Origin: Acidobacteriota bacterium
GTDB taxonomy: Bacteria; Acidobacteriota; Aminicenantia; Aminicenantales; Saccharicenantaceae
DNA: 64,000 nucleotides
Assembly (NCBI GenBank): GCA_029569255.1
Contig: JAKQUO010000048.1
Coordinates: 1-64,000, forward strand
Direction of reading: 5' to 3'
Shown: positions 1,292 to 49,448 of the stretch, piece by piece
How the letters are laid out: each line of letters opens with the position of its first letter
How positions within the stretch are numbered: position 1 is the first letter of the stretch
Translations under genes and position numbers: made by a program
The notes under the pieces: model-generated
The model's database searches: none
Told to the model about the DNA's origin: nothing
Seen by the model: only the letters and a program-made list of their open reading frames with translations

Positions 1292-1963
1292 TCATTCATG
1301 CTCAATCGAGCGGAGGTAGGCTTTGTAAGCCGCGCGCGTGTTGAGATTGCGCAGCCGGAGTTTTTCGCCCATGGGGACGACCGCCGTGCGGCGGATCTTA
1401 TAGAGAGGGAGGAGACCCCTCTCGCCGGTCTCGAGCAGGGACTCGACGGCCGGGATGATCGTGCGCCGATAGACGGCGAAGAGCGGTTCGAAATGCCCGG
1501 CCGGATCGACGGGGACGGCGATGTCGGCGTCCCGCGCCGCCCGGGCCAACGAGCGGAGAAGGGGAGAGGGGACCTCGGGGATGTCGCAGGCGACGACCAA
1601 ACAAGCCTCGTTCCGGGCGGCCCTCAAACCGGCCAGCAGGCCCCCGATCGGTCCGAGACCGGGTGTTTCATCCGGAACGGCCTTGAGCCCGTGGACCGGG
1701 CCGCGGGCGGGGGAGGAGGGATGGCGGGATGAGCTTGTGCGGGGGCCCCTCGCAAGTGCGATGCTTTGTCCGGGCGAGACGGAGATCAGGACTTCGTCGA
1801 AATAGGGCTCGATCTGGGCCAGGACGTGCTCGAGGAGCGTCTTGCCGCCGACATCGAGCCGGGCCTTGTCGGCCTTCATCCGGCGGCCGCGCCCGCCGGC
1901 CAGCACGATCGCCGTCATCGGCTTCCCGCCGCAGCGGATCTTCCTTTTCATCCCGCCCATCAT
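1292..1963 (-). CDS. mobA: Molybdenum cofactor guanylyltransferase MobA
   Basis: MobA transfers GMP from GTP to molybdopterin to give the bis-MGD form of the cofactor in the cytoplasm. The N-terminal nucleotide-binding signature 'TAIVLAGGRGRRMKADKA' is clear. It is followed by 'GPIGGLLAGL' and the metal-binding 'VVACDIPEV'. Between the first domain and 'GPIGG' there is an extra segment rich in Ser, Pro and Arg (about residues 63-90) that is longer than usual. The start is uncertain: the tandem ATG at 1963/1960 is used here, with ATGs at 1951 and 1918 possible. Translation further upstream would only read through the palindromic repeat at 1992-2020. No other molybdenum-cofactor gene is in the window. 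Confidence 0.85.
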   Translation of the reverse strand: MMGGMKRKIRCGGKPMTAIVLAGGRGRRMKADKARLDVGGKTLLEHVLAQIEPYFDEVLISVSPGQSIALARGPRTSSSRHPSSPARGPVHGLKAVPDETPGLGPIGGLLAGLRAARNEACLVVACDIPEVPSPLLRSLARAARDADIAVPVDPAGHFEPLFAVYRRTIIPAVESLLETGERGLLPLYKIRRTAVVPMGEKLRLRNLNTRAAYKAYLRSIEHE

Positions 1964-1991
1964 ATGTCCCTGCTCGTGCCATTTCAAGAAA

Positions 1992-2020
1992 GGGGACACG
2001 TGCCGGAGGTACATGTCCCC
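1992..2020. repeat. REP-like palindrome, copy 1
   Basis: Arms 'ggggacacgtgcc' and 'ggtacatgtcccc' surround a 3-nt loop 'gga'. It lies just upstream of mobA and reads with the C-A mismatch polarity on the plus strand. Confidence 0.9.
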
Positions 2021-6249: not shown

Positions 6250-6285
6250 CGGCCGGACGCGGAGCTTTGCGAAGAGGTGAACGCG

Positions 6286-8610
6286 ATGCGCAGAACCGGA
6301 CACATCCTCGGCGGCCGGGCCGCGCTTTGCGCCCTCGCCGCCGCCGTTCTCGCCCAGGCCGCGCCCGGCGCCGCAGCCGCCGCCGACGGGACCCGGGGCT
6401 TCTTCCCCGTCTCGGTCTGGTACGCCGGCGGCAAGGCCCGGGCCCCCATGCTCGAGACCGTCACCCCGGCCTCGCGCGAGGCCTGGAGGAAGGACATCGA
6501 CCAGATCAGGCGCCTCGGCTTCAACACCGTCCGGACCTGGGTCGAATGGACGGCCTGCGAGAAGACCGAGGGGACGTACGACTTCTCCGCGCTCGAGCTC
6601 CTGACCGACCTCGCCGGCGAGGCCGGCCTGCGGGTCATCGTCCAGGTCTACATCGATTCGGCGCCGGACTGGGTCGGCCGGAAGTTCCCCGAGGCCAAGT
6701 TCGTCGCCTCGAACGGCGTCGCCGTCGAATCGCAGGCCTCGCCCGGCTTCTGCTTCGACCACGCCGGCGTCCGGGAGAAGGTCCTCGGTTTCTTCAGGGC
6801 GGCGGCCCGGGCGGTCCGGGACAAGCCCGCCCTCTACGGCTGGGACCTCTGGAGCGAGCCCCACATCATCAACTGGGCCGAGGTCTATTACGTCGGCGAC
6901 CTCCAGTCGGTCCAGTTCTGCTACTGCCCCTCGACCCAGGCCCGGTTCCGCGACTGGCTCGAGAAGAAGTACGGCACGGTCGAGGCCCTGAACAAGGCCT
7001 GGTACCGGACCCTCCGGTCGTGGGACGAGGTCCAGCCGCCGCGCTTCGGCACCATCCTGACCTTCACCGACTACATCGACTGGAAGGAGTTCATCTCCGA
7101 CAAGCTGGCCGAGGACCTGGCCCTCAAGGCCGCGGCCGTCAAGTCGGTCCTGCCGGCGACGGTCGTGACCAGCCACTCGGCCGGGCCGGGCATCTTCACG
7201 CGGCCGGACTGGTCGGGGACGCCCGACGACCGCAAGATGTCCGACAGCGTCGATTATTACGGCGCCTCGATCTACCCCAAGCACGCCTGGACGATCAGGC
7301 CCTGGTCGCCGTACTACCGGTCCTCGGGCCTCGACTTCGTCCGGTCCATGGGCATCGGGAACGGCGGCTTCTACATCGGCGAGCTCCAGGCCGGCTACGG
7401 CGTCTTCGGCATGAAGATGAGCCAGCCGGTCGTCGCGACGGACACGCGGGACTGGATGTGGAGCGCGGTGGCCTACGGGGCCCGGGCCGTCAACATCTAC
7501 GCCTACTACCCGATGAGCACGGGCTACGAGGCCGGCGGCTACGGCCTGGTCGAGCTCGACGGCAAGGTCACCGAGCGGGCCGAGGCCGGCGGGAGGATCG
7601 CCCGGACGATCACCGCGAACAAGGACCTCTTCCTCGGCGCGCAGCCGGCCAAGGCGGAGATCGCCATCCTCTACAACCCGCTCTCGCACATGGTCGGCGG
7701 CCAGCAGGCCTACACCGGCGAGGGCCAGACGGTCGGCGCCAACAACCTGAGCGAATCGCTCCAGGGCGTCCACCGGGCCTTCTTCGAACGGAATGTCCCG
7801 GTCGATTTCCTCCACGTCCGCGACCTCGGGACGCCGCGGGCGGCCGGCTACCGGCTGATCGTCGCGCCCTACCCGGTCATGATGTCCCGGCCCCACGTCC
7901 GGGCCCTGGCCGACTACGTCCGGGGCGGCGGGACGCTGGTGACGGAGGCGCGGTGCGGCTGGGTCGACGAGAAGGGGGCCTCCAGCCCGGTCGTCCCCGG
8001 CGGCGGGCTCCACGAGGTCCTGGGCTGCCGCGAGACCGAGCTCACGCCGCTCCCCAAGACCGGCGCGATCGAGATCACGGCGCGGGACGAGGCCCTGCCC
8101 CTGCTCGAGCCGGGCGACCGGCTCGACAGCCTCTTCTTCGAGGAGGCCTTCGACGTCTTCGGCGGCTCGAGCCGCGTCCTGGCCAAGTTCTCCGACGGGC
8201 GGCCGGCCGTGGTGGCCGCGCCCTTCGGGAAGGGCAGGGCCATCATCGTCGGCTCGTTCCCCGGCTCGGCCTATCACCACTTCCGCAATCCCAACAACGG
8301 CAAGCTCTTCGCCGGGCTGGCCGACTGGCTGAGGATCGAGCCGGCGGTCGAGGTCGGCCCGCCGGCGCCGGACGCGGCCGTCGAGGGCCGCCTGCTCCAG
8401 GGCGACGGCTACGCGCTCCTCTTCGGCTTCAACCGGGGCGAGGAGACGGTCACGGCCAGGTTCGGGATCAAGGCGGGCCGGGGACGCGTCACGGCGACGG
8501 ACCTGGAGACGGGGGCGTCGGTCAAGGTCGCGACGGAGCGCGGCCGGGCCGTCGTCGAGAAGGCCCTCGAGCCCTCCGAGGCCTGGGTCGTGCATATCAA
8601 GCAGAGATGA
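6286..8610 (+). CDS. GH42-type beta-galactosidase, secreted
   Basis: This 774-residue protein has an N-terminal signal peptide (ends near residue 33). It shows the GH42 layout: a TIM barrel ('FNTVRTWVEWTACEKTEGTY'), acid/base Glu191 in 'WDLWSEPH', a predicted nucleophile Glu366 in 'FYIGELQAGYG', then a trimerisation-like Rossmann domain ('YRLIVAPYPVMMS', 'ADYVRGGGTLVTEARCGW') and a small C-terminal beta domain. Family 42 enzymes release terminal galactose or arabinose from oligosaccharides. ATG 6286 is chosen because 'gaagagg' precedes it by the right distance; a GTG at 6277 is an alternative. The stop codon is followed at once by palindromic repeats. Confidence 0.85.
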   Translation: MRRTGHILGGRAALCALAAAVLAQAAPGAAAAADGTRGFFPVSVWYAGGKARAPMLETVTPASREAWRKDIDQIRRLGFNTVRTWVEWTACEKTEGTYDFSALELLTDLAGEAGLRVIVQVYIDSAPDWVGRKFPEAKFVASNGVAVESQASPGFCFDHAGVREKVLGFFRAAARAVRDKPALYGWDLWSEPHIINWAEVYYVGDLQSVQFCYCPSTQARFRDWLEKKYGTVEALNKAWYRTLRSWDEVQPPRFGTILTFTDYIDWKEFISDKLAEDLALKAAAVKSVLPATVVTSHSAGPGIFTRPDWSGTPDDRKMSDSVDYYGASIYPKHAWTIRPWSPYYRSSGLDFVRSMGIGNGGFYIGELQAGYGVFGMKMSQPVVATDTRDWMWSAVAYGARAVNIYAYYPMSTGYEAGGYGLVELDGKVTERAEAGGRIARTITANKDLFLGAQPAKAEIAILYNPLSHMVGGQQAYTGEGQTVGANNLSESLQGVHRAFFERNVPVDFLHVRDLGTPRAAGYRLIVAPYPVMMSRPHVRALADYVRGGGTLVTEARCGWVDEKGASSPVVPGGGLHEVLGCRETELTPLPKTGAIEITARDEALPLLEPGDRLDSLFFEEAFDVFGGSSRVLAKFSDGRPAVVAAPFGKGRAIIVGSFPGSAYHHFRNPNNGKLFAGLADWLRIEPAVEVGPPAPDAAVEGRLLQGDGYALLFGFNRGEETVTARFGIKAGRGRVTATDLETGASVKVATERGRAVVEKALEPSEAWVVHIKQR

Positions 8611-8623
8611 TGGGGACACGCAT

Positions 8624-8654
8624 GGGGACATGCACCGCCCCGGTACGTGTCCCC
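8624..8654. repeat. REP-like palindrome, copy 3
   Basis: Arms 'ggggacatgcacc' and 'ggtacgtgtcccc' with loop 'gcccc' and T-G polarity on the plus strand. A half-site 'ggggacacg' (8612-8620) precedes it, directly after the GH42 stop codon. Confidence 0.9.
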
Positions 8655-8712
8655 GATCATGCCTGGTCACGGGGGCGCATGGCAAATCGATGGGGGCGAG
8701 GACTTTCGGGCA

Positions 8713-8743
8713 GGGGACATGTACCGCCCCGGTACGTGTCCCC
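8713..8743. repeat. REP-like palindrome, copy 4
   Basis: Arms 'ggggacatgtacc' and 'ggtacgtgtcccc' with loop 'gcccc' and T-G polarity. It lies in the GH42-ROK intergenic region. Confidence 0.9.
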
Positions 8744-8782: not shown

Positions 8783-8811
8783 GGGGACACGCGCCCGAGG
8801 CACATGTCGCC
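8783..8811. repeat. REP-like palindrome, copy 5, carrying the ROK start codon
   Basis: Degenerate copy 'ggggacacgcgcc' ... 'ggcacatgtcgcc', inverted relative to copy 4. The ATG of 'acatgtc' in its right arm (8804-8806) is the best start codon for the ROK kinase gene. Confidence 0.75.
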
Positions 8812-9871
8812 GTTATGCGGCGGGATCGACGTCGGCGGGACGAAGATCGCCTCGGCCCTGTTCGACGAGAACGGGGAGATCTCGGCCCGGGACAAGATCG
8901 CCATCGACAGGCGGGGCGGCGACGCGGCCGCGGCCCAGGTCGCCGGGCGGATCGAGGCCCTGGCCGACGCGGCCGCCAAGGCTGGCGGGACGCTGGCCGC
9001 CGTAGGCATCGCCGTCCCCGGCATCGCCTATTCGGCCAGCGGCCAGGTCTGGGCCCCGAACATCCCCGGCTGGGACCGGTATCCGCTGTTGGACAAAGTC
9101 CGGGGACATGTCCCTCTGGCGCGGCGTGCCCCTCTTGTCTTGGTGTCCGACCGGAGCGCCTATGTCGCCGGCGAGGCCTGGCGCGGCGCGGCGGCGGGGG
9201 CCAGGGACGCCGTCTTCCTGGCCGTCGGCACGGGCATCGGCCTGGGCGTCATTTCCGGCGGCCGGATCGTCCACGGGCATGAGGACATCGCCGGGGCCGT
9301 CGGCTGGTTCGCCCTGGACCCCGGCTTCAAACCGGCGTACGCCTCCATGGGGTGTTTCGAGGCCGAGGCCTCGGGGAGCTCGGTCGCTCGCAAGGCCCGG
9401 GAACGGATCGCCGCCGGCCGCTCCTCGCGCATTCTCGATCTCGCCGGCGGCCGCGCCGAGGCTGTCACCGCCGAGACGGTCGCCGCCGCGGCCCGGGCCG
9501 GGGACGCCTTGGCCCGTGAGATCGTCGCCGAGGCCGTGACCTATCTCTCCATGGGTGTGGCCAACATCGTCAGCCTCCTGAACCCCGAGACGGTCGTCCT
9601 CGGCGGCGGCCTGTTCCGGGCGGCCGACCTCTTCCTCGAACCCGTCCGCCGGGAGTTCCGGCGCTGGGCCCAGCCGCTGGCGGCCCGGGCGGTCCGGATC
9701 GAGCTCTCCAAGCTCGGCGAGGCCGCCGGGCTCTACGGCTGCGGGAGATTGGCCTGGCAGTATTATCAAGAACAAGAAAGGGGACACGTACCGGAGGTAC
9801 ATGTCCCCCCTCGAACCCGCCCCGGCAGCGCGCATCGGAAGCGGCGCAATAAGCGGAGAGATGCCAAGTGA
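8804..9871 (+). CDS. ROK-family sugar kinase
   Basis: ROK kinases phosphorylate glucose, N-acetylglucosamine, N-acetylmannosamine or fructose with ATP. The ATP-binding 'GGIDVGGTKIASALFD' opens the protein. 'LAAVGIAVPG', 'AVGTGIGLGVISGGRIVHG' and the zinc-site region 'MGCFEAEASGSS' follow. The full cysteine set of the classical zinc motif is not present. Only 'MSPLC' precedes the fold, and that ATG is supplied by a palindromic repeat; no Shine-Dalgarno is evident. A decayed repeat lies in frame near residue 100 ('KVRGHVPLARRAPL'). The last ~30 residues ('ERGHVPEVHVP' onward) are read from another repeat and its flank. The core domain looks complete, so it may still be active. It sits beside a SIS isomerase, as expected for amino-sugar catabolism. 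Confidence 0.8.
   Translation: MSPLCGGIDVGGTKIASALFDENGEISARDKIAIDRRGGDAAAAQVAGRIEALADAAAKAGGTLAAVGIAVPGIAYSASGQVWAPNIPGWDRYPLLDKVRGHVPLARRAPLVLVSDRSAYVAGEAWRGAAAGARDAVFLAVGTGIGLGVISGGRIVHGHEDIAGAVGWFALDPGFKPAYASMGCFEAEASGSSVARKARERIAAGRSSRILDLAGGRAEAVTAETVAAAARAGDALAREIVAEAVTYLSMGVANIVSLLNPETVVLGGGLFRAADLFLEPVRREFRRWAQPLAARAVRIELSKLGEAAGLYGCGRLAWQYYQEQERGHVPEVHVPPRTRPGSAHRKRRNKRRDAK
9102..9132. repeat. Decayed REP-like palindrome inside the ROK gene
   Basis: The left arm 'ggggacatgtccc' is intact; the right arm 'ggcgtgcccc' lacks one base. It lies in frame within the ROK coding sequence, in a region where family members vary in length. Confidence 0.55.
9780..9808. repeat. REP-like palindrome, copy 6, in the ROK 3' end
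   Basis: Arms 'ggggacacgtacc' and 'ggtacatgtcccc' with loop 'gga' and C-A polarity. It is translated as part of the ROK C-terminal tail. Confidence 0.9.
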
Positions 9872-9882
9872 CCGGGCAACTC

Positions 9883-9911
9883 GGGGACATGTGCCGAAGG
9901 TCGGTGTCCCC
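9883..9911. repeat. REP-like palindrome, copy 7
   Basis: Arms 'ggggacatgtgcc' and 'ggtcggtgtcccc', inverted relative to copy 6. It lies just before the Shine-Dalgarno of the SIS gene. Confidence 0.8.
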
Positions 9912-9931: not shown

Positions 9932-10771
9932 ATGTCCGCACAGAACTACCTCGGCATCGTCCAGTGGATCCTGGCCGAGATCCAATCGCGCGAGATGACG
10001 GCCATCAAGGCCGCGGCCAGGCTCATGGCCGCCTCCATCCGCCGGAAGGGCCGCGTCTACATGTTCGGCAGCGGCCACTCGGTCATCCCGGTCCTCGACA
10101 TCTTCCCCCGCTACGGCGGCTTCGTCGGCTTCTTCCCGCTCTGCGACCCGCGGCTGATGTGGTCGAACGTCATCGGCCCCGGCGGCGCCCGCGAGCTCCT
10201 CTGGCTCGAGCGCCAGGAGGGCTACGCCAAGGTCTTCCTCCAGAGCTTCCCGCTCGAGCCGCGCGACGTCATGCTCGTCTTCTCCCACGGCGGCCTCAAC
10301 GCGGCCCCGATCGAGGTGGCCCTCGAGGCCAGGGCCCGCGGCCTCAAGGTCGTCGCCGTCTCCTCGCACGCCAACGCCGCGGCCGGCCGGCGCCCCCATT
10401 CGTCGGGGAAGGCCCTGTCGGAGATCGCCGACGTGGCCATCGACAACCACGTCCCGCCCGAGGACGCCCTCGTCGACGTCGGGCAGACTGAGCGCGTCGC
10501 CGCGGGCTCGACCGTCGCGGCCGTCTCCATCGCCATGGCCCTGGTCGCCGAGACGGCCGCCGCCCTGGCCAAGGCCGGGAAGGTGCCGCCGACCTTCGTT
10601 TCGCCCAACGTCCGCGGCGTCCCGGCCGGCCACATGGCCGGGGTCTATCGGGCCTTCACCGAGTTCTGCTACGCCCGGCCGTTCAAGGCCGCGAAAAGGC
10701 CCGGCGCCCGGCCCGGCGGGAAGCGGGCCGCCAAGCGGCCGAAGGCCCCCGCGAAAGGCCCGCGCCCGTGA
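9932..10771 (+). CDS. SIS-domain sugar-phosphate isomerase/binding protein
   Basis: This 279-residue cytoplasmic protein is of the 'sugar isomerase domain' (UPF0309/MurQ-like) type. The phosphosugar-binding signature is 'GRVYMFGSGHSVIPVLDIF', with a second Ser-rich strand 'VMLVFSHGG' and 'VVAVSSHANA'. Related proteins act on phosphorylated amino sugars or as regulators, and the exact substrate is unknown. The last ~35 residues are a Lys/Arg/Pro/Ala-rich tail that is probably disordered. The start ATG has a strong 'aaggagaaa' site. The 3' end overlaps the MFS gene by 4 bp (GTGA), implying translational coupling. With the ROK kinase upstream this suggests an amino-sugar processing unit. Confidence 0.8.
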   Translation: MSAQNYLGIVQWILAEIQSREMTAIKAAARLMAASIRRKGRVYMFGSGHSVIPVLDIFPRYGGFVGFFPLCDPRLMWSNVIGPGGARELLWLERQEGYAKVFLQSFPLEPRDVMLVFSHGGLNAAPIEVALEARARGLKVVAVSSHANAAAGRRPHSSGKALSEIADVAIDNHVPPEDALVDVGQTERVAAGSTVAAVSIAMALVAETAAALAKAGKVPPTFVSPNVRGVPAGHMAGVYRAFTEFCYARPFKAAKRPGARPGGKRAAKRPKAPAKGPRP

Positions 10772-30965: not shown

Positions 30966-31226
30966 ACGGGATGATTTCACAGGGGCCGCGCAACGCCTTA
31001 TCAAAGACATTTCGCAGGATCGAGGCTCCGAGTCGCTCCGCCGCGATTCTGCCCCTCGCTCGCTGACGCTCGCGAGTAAGGAAGCAAGAAGGGCCCTGGA
31101 GAGGAATCCCCGTGTCCTGCCCCATTTTTCGCAATAGCCTTGGACGGGGCCCTCCTTGCGTTGGCCCCATTCTCGGGCGGGCGGCCCGGCCGGTCAATCG
31201 CCCCGCGCGGCGATTGGGGAGGTGAA
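30966..31226. other. Intergenic stretch without recognised gene
   Basis: About 260 bp between the OmpA-like promoter and the small inverted-repeat element. Short open frames on the minus strand have no recognisable protein similarity. Confidence 0.5.
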
Positions 31227-31309
31227 GGGGTCAAACCTTTAAAAGTTTAATTTTTCGCCGGTCCCGGTGCATGCCGGTCAATAAATTAAACTTTTAAAGG
31301 TTTGACCCC
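31227..31309. mobile_element. 83-bp MITE-like inverted-repeat element
   Basis: Terminal inverted repeats of about 25 bp: left begins 'ggggtcaaacctttaaaag', right ends 'cttttaaaggtttgacccc'. They flank a 33-bp centre and encode nothing. The outer 'gggtcaaacct' is also found at the right end of the larger element at 49188-49399, suggesting one family of ends. Confidence 0.75.
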
Positions 31310-31404
31310 GTCTTTTTTTCTAAGTATGATGAGGCGGCCACGACCGAGTTCGATGACATCCGATGTTCCGGGCCGGCCGCGCGCGCCGGTCGGGGGAGGA
31401 GAGC

Positions 31405-33276: not shown

Positions 33277-33951
33277 TTGACTTCCCCTCCGACTCAATCT
33301 ATGCTCCCAATCTGGATTATTCACGAAACGGGACGGCCCTCGGATGCGAGGCCCGAGGGGGGAAGCCGTGCTCTTCGGTACTGCGAACCCCCGAGAACGA
33401 AGCAGATGGGGCCGGAACGGTTCGCCCGGAGGGTGAAAACGCCCGATCATAAGAGAGGCAGATGGGCCGGCACATGGGGACATGCACTTCCAGTGCGTGT
33501 CCCCGTTCAGACAGGCGGGACACGTACCGGGGCGGTACATGTCCCGACACGCGCCTCGAGCACCTGGCAACTGATCCCATATCCACCCACAGAAAAAGGA
33601 AGAGAACCCCCCGTCTACGCCGTCCTCAACAAGAGCTACCGCCAGAAATTCTTCATCGACACCGGGGCGACGACGACCATCATCCCCGCGGCGGCCGCGG
33701 CGGCGCTGGGCATCCGGATCGACGACACGACGCCCGTCGTCGGCCTCCAGGGCGTGGCCGGGAGCGATCTCGCCTACCAGGTCCGCCTCGAGTCGATCGA
33801 GATCGAGCGCCAAACGGTCTTCGACATCCGGGCCATCGTCTACGACCTGGGCGAGGACGAGAACGCCGGCCTGCTCGGCAACGATTTTCTCCAGAGCTTC
33901 CAGGTCGACCTCGACAGCATCAAAGGCGTCCTCAAGCTCCGGAAGAGGTGA
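33277..33951 (+). CDS. Retropepsin-like aspartic protease with repeat-derived N-terminus
   Basis: Only about residues 109-224 (33601 onward) look like a real protein domain: a retroviral-type aspartic protease. The active site is 'FFIDTGATTTIIP' (D-T-G), with strands 'GVAGSDLAYQVRLESIEI' and 'IVYDLGEDENAGLLGNDFLQ' and the closing 'VDLDSIKGVLKL'. These bacterial homologues are usually periplasmic and have an N-terminal signal. Here everything upstream of 33601 is a composite palindromic repeat element (33459-33607) followed backward by tRNA flank, so the native 5' part has been lost. The frame stays open through the repeat, encoding Arg/Pro/Gly-rich sequence. It may be a pseudogene or an in-frame fusion. 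Confidence 0.6.
   Translation: MTSPPTQSMLPIWIIHETGRPSDARPEGGSRALRYCEPPRTKQMGPERFARRVKTPDHKRGRWAGTWGHALPVRVPVQTGGTRTGAVHVPTRASSTWQLIPYPPTEKGREPPVYAVLNKSYRQKFFIDTGATTTIIPAAAAAALGIRIDDTTPVVGLQGVAGSDLAYQVRLESIEIERQTVFDIRAIVYDLGEDENAGLLGNDFLQSFQVDLDSIKGVLKLRKR
33476..33504. repeat. REP-like palindrome, copy 9
   Basis: Arms 'ggggacatgcact' / 'agtgcgtgtcccc' with T-G polarity, inside the MITE-like element. Confidence 0.85.
33516..33546. repeat. REP-like palindrome, copy 10
   Basis: Arms 'cgggacacgtacc' / 'ggtacatgtcccg' with loop 'ggggc' and C-A polarity, so it is inverted relative to copy 9. Confidence 0.85.
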
Positions 33952-49131: not shown

Positions 49132-49264
49132 CGTCCTCAACCCCTTTTTAACGCGCGCCGGCCGGCCGGAGTTGCATCTTCAAGACGGGGTCAGATCTAC
49201 CTGGTTCTCTTCCATTTTCTGTGGGTGGCTATGGGATCGGTTGCCAGGTGCTCGAGGCGCGTGT

Positions 49265-49295
49265 CGGGACATGTACCGCCCCGGTACGTGTCCCG
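49265..49295. repeat. REP-like palindrome, copy 12
   Basis: Arms 'cgggacatgtacc' / 'ggtacgtgtcccg' with loop 'gcccc' and T-G polarity. It is the exact reverse complement of copy 10. Confidence 0.9.
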
Positions 49296-49314
49296 TAGGC
49301 CTGAATGCCTGAAT

Positions 49315-49343
49315 GGGGACACGTACTGGGAGTACATGTCCCC
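49315..49343. repeat. REP-like palindrome, copy 13
   Basis: Arms 'ggggacacgtact' / 'agtacatgtcccc' with C-A polarity, inverted relative to copy 12. Confidence 0.9.
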
Positions 49344-49448
49344 ATAAGCCGGCCCATCTGACCCACACAACGTGGAAGAGAACCAGGCAGGTTTGACCCT
49401 CTCTTCCGAAATGGCATCGGGCCGGCGATTTTGTTAAGATGGGGCCCG

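Follow-up and report, generated by a model that had tools for sequence, protein, structure and literature searches.

The window, that is, the whole 64,000-nt stretch of DNA analysed, belongs to a metagenome-assembled genome (MAG) of an Acidobacteriota bacterium, designated G000 here, whose closest named relatives are Candidatus Aminicenantes MAGs. A ROK-family sugar kinase of 355 aa is encoded on the plus strand at positions 8804–9871, with the stop codon at 9869–9871. On its 5' side lies a GH42 beta-galactosidase-like gene (6277–8610, plus strand, Pfam), and on its 3' side a gene for a SIS-domain protein (9932–10771, plus strand, Pfam SIS_2). The gene row is GH42–kinase–SIS–MFS transporter, and with these neighbours the kinase has the appearance of belonging to a sugar-use operon. 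Its product is a member of the ROK family according to the Pfam ROK domain (1.1e-47, 163.4 bits vs. a gathering score of 22.9). The top NCBIfam model is the ROK glucokinase TIGR00744 (3.1e-59), with a score of 200.8 bits, which is under the cut-off of 260.35. The AlphaFold2 (AF2) model has a mean pLDDT of 82.5 and shows the ROK fold when compared with glucokinase 2qm1 (Z 31.6, rmsd 2.9, 305 aligned residues). A viral-contig scan for the kinase gave no match.

The kinase gene carries palindromes of the REP type (GGGGACAYGTACC...GGTACRTGTCCCC) at three sites, namely the start codon, codons 100–110 and codons 326–335, and the repeat copies described in the first-pass annotation were all found in their places. 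The start copy, GGGGACACGCGCCCGAGGCACATGTCGCC (8783–8811, plus strand), contains ATG 8804 in its right arm, giving M-S-P, and the same junction is found in the genome of a congener, G006. The middle copy, GGGGACATGTCCCTCTGGCGCGGCGTGCCCC (9102–9132, plus strand), lies in frame near residue 100; its left arm is exact and its right arm has decayed, as had been noticed before. The end copy, GGGGACACGTACCGGAGGTACATGTCCCC (9780–9808, plus strand), is intact and is read as RGHVPEVHVP. It is followed by a C-terminal extension of 20 aa (9809–9868, plus strand), which is basic and predicted to be disordered. Three more copies on the plus strand, missing from the first-pass annotation, flank the kinase in the spacers: two in the GH42–kinase spacer (8624–8654 and 8713–8743, the latter complete and with an RNA z-score of −4.1), and an imperfect one in the kinase–SIS spacer (9883–9911).

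These palindromes belong to an abundant family. The window contains 17 exact GGGGACAYGT arms, compared with 0.17 expected from shuffled sequences, and the G000 genome contains 155, compared with one occurrence of the reversed control pattern. With a length of 29–31 nt and 47 complete copies in G000 under stringent matching, the family has the size and copy number of REPs. The palindromes fold as hairpins. Their two arms differ at a single base, ATG in one and ACG in the other, so that each copy can be oriented. None of the six frames of the consensus GGGGACAYGTACCNNNNGGTACRTGTCCCC has a stop codon, unless the loop bases themselves form one. Genomes of the genus have 2 to 166 GGGGACAYGTAC arms each, those of the family's other genera 0 to 4, so the REP is essentially restricted to the genus. 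An Rfam search returned tRNAs only.

RAYT (Y1_Tnp) genes are flanked by the same REP on both sides in G009 and G011, and the REP is located just upstream of the RAYT gene in G004. RAYTs with the exact REP at their flanks were found in these three congeners only; the Y1_Tnp search gave no match in the REP-rich genomes G005 and G006, the latter being 73% complete. In G000 itself the association takes a variant form only: its nearest RAYT, 57–59% identical to the RAYTs of G009, G004 and G011, is bordered on either side by a palindrome whose arms read GGGGACACACAC. This pattern fits a REP/RAYT system, from which we infer that the palindromes move. A G000 RAYT with this variant at both flanks is located on contig C57 (~114.8–115.5 kb; palindromes at L042:1382–1406 and 2068–2092). 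A second palindrome family, GGGGTCAAACCTTTAAAAGTTTAATTT, with inverted arms of 30 nt, is present in the window at 31224–31312, and its motif also flanks another G000 RAYT (L041:1355 and 2695). In addition, the window contains a composite REP-containing segment in two inverted copies about 15.6 kb apart (33459–33608 and 49203–49360), which match over 103 nt at 93% and over 55 nt at 87%.

In the AF2 model, the middle REP of the kinase occupies the turn between helix 94–102 and strand 111–115, and the protein alignment indicates that the length of this turn varies across the family. The REP replaced 7 native residues of the helix–strand turn with about 10. As this is not a clean insertion, either a deletion came along with the REP or trimming took place afterwards. 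The span from GW[D/V] to SDR is 75 nt in G004 and in the outgroups G026, G031 and G032, 84 nt in G006 and G012, 87 nt in G000, 93 nt in G009 and G003, and 126 nt in G001. Intact middle REPs, read as [RG]GHVP.V[HR]VP, are present in G006, G009, G005 and G001; the last genome has two of them in opposite orientation with 12 nt between, which resemble a REPIN pair. The copy of G000 is half decayed, and the loops of G003 and G012, judged by position and partial similarity, are apparently older, decayed remnants. There is no middle REP in G004 or in more distant relatives, and G014, from another genus, has a long loop of its own, which is unrelated. The same loop is found empty, filled, double and apparently decayed within one genus.

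In the GH42 tree, G004, G001 and G005 group together (98/98), and in the rpoB-region DNA tree, which resolves three groups only, G004 is placed with G005 (100/99). The nesting of the REP-free G004 with G001 and G005 means that the REP was either lost in G004 or gained repeatedly elsewhere. The left junction ATA-AGG-GGA-CA is common to G006, G009 and G001 at this site, and this favours one ancestral insertion with loss in G004 over repeated filling of the loop.

The kinases of most relatives stop about 4–12 residues past the conserved LAW. The G000 kinase continues via QYYQEQE into the REP and then for 20 more residues. The 30 C-terminal residues (326–355) are found in G000 alone and have no counterpart among the orthologues, which agrees with the earlier suggestion that the last ~30 residues derive from a repeat copy and its flank. 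The G006 gene has two TAA codons ahead of the equivalent REP, so that the palindrome corresponding to the C-terminal copy of G000 lies there 3' of the kinase stop, within the kinase–SIS spacer. The kinase of G003 has a C-terminal extension of its own, unrelated to this one. Residues 331–355 of G000 are predicted to be disordered (pLDDT about 36–42); the disorder and the poor codon usage of the tail match the expectation for recently captured non-coding DNA that would now be translated.

The kinase is not the only gene with such inserts. Among 90 loosely matched REP sites in the window and in REP-centred stretches of the genome, 14 overlap a gene called by a home-made codon-usage gene caller, and several of these arise by chance or lie at starts that are doubtful. 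Coding sequence makes up about 88% of the window, yet most REPs are intergenic. The earlier remark that repeats tend to be kept out of coding sequence therefore describes this genome, but intragenic REPs, also at both termini of ORFs, have been published (PMC3733652). A DnaE2-type error-prone polymerase contains three in-frame REPs (L153:1433–4381, contig C30, minus strand). At two of its three REP loops, G008 and G009 have REPs as well; G002, G003 and G012 have remnants there that resemble GGHVP. FolC has two REPs in one loop of the C-terminal domain (L159:2479–3906, contig C46, minus strand); the same loop has a single REP in G008 and in G009 and is REP-free in G002, G003, G004, G005, G011 and G012. 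In a TupA-like tungstate-binding protein, two REPs are located between the signal peptide and the mature domain (L142:2477–3460, contig C17). The REP is read as RGHVP..VHVP in the kinase, as GDTY..MSP in DnaE2 and as GTR..GTCP in FolC, i.e., in all three frames. The longest reading of a MobA-like ORF of the window (1292–2014) also starts at a REP ATG; a later start, at MTAIVLAGG, is likelier there, which means that automatic annotation may misplace the start.

As regards the kinase start, the kinases of relatives generally begin a few residues ahead of FCG/LCG, and in G003 and G012 the start codon of the kinase shares bases with the GH42 stop codon on its 5' side (ATGA). A REP occupies this place in G000 and G006, and its right arm, ATG-TCC/TCG-CC, runs straight into L-C-G; in these genomes the REP appears to have displaced the ancestral start. 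ATG 8804 does lie inside the right arm of the palindrome, as the first-pass annotation stated, and the choice of this codon hangs on the gene model. A start downstream of the repeat, which was raised there as well, is impossible with ATG, GTG or TTG unless the DVGGTK motif is lost, because none of these codons occurs in codons 2–95, and the first one, TTG at codon 96, is past the motif. Translation might begin upstream, at ATG 8690 or 8630, both in frame and with no stop codon before 8804, which would leave the REP inside an N-terminal extension, or the REP might be a regulatory leader hairpin. We regard this as a minority possibility, though one to be taken seriously. A G-rich stretch at 8690 can pair with the anti-Shine–Dalgarno sequence, but its spacing is poor; in G006 an ATG preceded by AAAGGTGAAGG is located 12 codons 5' of the REP ATG, so the use of the REP ATG is uncertain even in that genome. 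On the other hand, such an N-terminal extension exists in no relative, both upstream ATGs of G000 sit among the REP copies of the spacer, and ATG 8804 itself is preceded by GAGG with a pairing energy of −5.9 kcal/mol, though just 3 nt away. Since 8690 and 8630 lie in a REP-rich spacer and the next downstream start is past DVGGTK, ATG 8804 is the likeliest start. The N-terminal peptide predicted from it is (M)SPLCGGIDVGGTK.

Palindromes at both ends and in the middle of a gene might also mean that the kinase is a pseudogene in the making, with the tail as read-through of a damaged 3' end. The REP tail and the REP loop indeed have poor coding scores (−18.7 and −7.6 per 20 codons, with most of the kinase at +8 to +15), and a predicted RNA hairpin of −22.8 kcal/mol (z −2.0), with ATG 8804 in its 3' arm, spans and would occlude the start. 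However, the ORF has neither an internal stop nor a frameshift, GC3 is 0.85–1.0 outside the REP-derived parts, and the motifs DVGGTK (P-loop-like), SDR, GTGIG and GGG are intact in the protein alignment. The kinase body, taken without the REP-derived parts, is under purifying selection, with dN/dS (NG86) of 0.22–0.30 to each of six relatives. Degeneration is accordingly unlikely, and the kinase is probably active, as far as its sequence can tell. It is also conceivable that the repeat pattern was produced by the assembly, as this MAG consists of 62 contigs and short repeats can confuse assemblers. But in the separate MAG G006 (RBG_16_66_30), REPs are likewise present at this start junction, in this loop and just past the stop, and the loop copy is common to other MAGs, so an artefact is hardly credible.

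The first-pass annotation spoke of a gene assembled around repeats. That the repeats built the kinase is ruled out, as relatives without any REP at the gene have full-length orthologues. An ancient kinase was thus invaded, and the REPs came late, to two of its boundaries and to one loop. What survives of the idea that repeats have become the start, middle and end of one protein is that REP DNA serves as coding sequence of an intact, selected gene; a gene-building role does not. We consider it quite probable (roughly 0.85) that a normal ROK kinase was invaded by a genus-specific REP and that copies were retained where the protein tolerates them. RAYT-type (Y1) transposases would probably move REP copies, which land mostly between genes. 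The consensus being stop-free and 29–31 nt long, a copy that lands within or beside an ORF is translated as long as the net change in length leaves the reading frame intact. Selection would then retain only copies in tolerated places, where they are presumably neutral: just ahead of the first strand, with the ATG of an arm turned into the start codon; in a turn whose length varies; and beyond the last helix, with the stop displaced.

A bolder reading would make the REPs of the genus a recurrent source of new protein sequence, with the same permissive loops of several enzymes independently re-occupied and with a structured kinase start, borne by the REP hairpin, in place of translational coupling to GH42. 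It is prompted by the palindrome being open in all frames and by the ATG of one arm being preceded by GAGG/GGAGG; we find it improbable. Three proteins of one uncultured genus provide a clean natural series of a selfish palindrome: empty, single, inverted pair and apparently decayed. The series allows tests of REP entry into coding sequence, of the limitation of tolerance to loops and ends, and of loss versus re-acquisition. For annotators, it is a warning that start codons may come from REP arms and that stops may be displaced.

The nearest published parallel is provided by the intragenic GTAG/CGTC REPs of the Di Nocera type, palindromes of 20–40 bp that are mostly intergenic, with some in frame within ORFs (PMC3733652). 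They occur singly, as dimers or in clusters, at the N-ends, at the C-ends and in the interior of ORFs, DnaE2 included, and two Xanthomonas species have a REP at approximately the same position of recB (PMC3733652). The Aminicenantes REP is similarly a short, mostly intergenic palindrome with in-frame copies in ORFs and with DnaE2 among its targets; it differs in its GGGGACAYGTACC arms, and the GTAG/CGTC end tag is not apparent in the listed G000 palindromes. A limited literature search found no report for the phylum Aminicenantes. Rickettsia palindromic elements (RPEs) are mobile palindromes inserted in frame into unrelated, presumably functional protein genes (PMC10969869). RPEs are about 150 bp long, encode a peptide conserved in one frame and form a largely intragenic family, whereas the REP described here is about 30 bp long, is read in three frames and is mostly intergenic, and thus is not an RPE. 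With REPIN/RAYT systems it shares the REP palindromes, the inverted pairs and RAYTs flanked by the cognate REP, as far as the available parts of two accounts describe them (PMC3116915, PMC2817692); in these parts, the accounts concern extragenic REPs, while the kinase REPs are intragenic. Intragenic REPs, including start and end copies, have already been published. Compared with the GTAG/CGTC cases, the kinase has start, middle and end copies in one gene, and one site can be compared in the filled, double, apparently decayed and empty state across a single genus, which adds unusually good comparative resolution.
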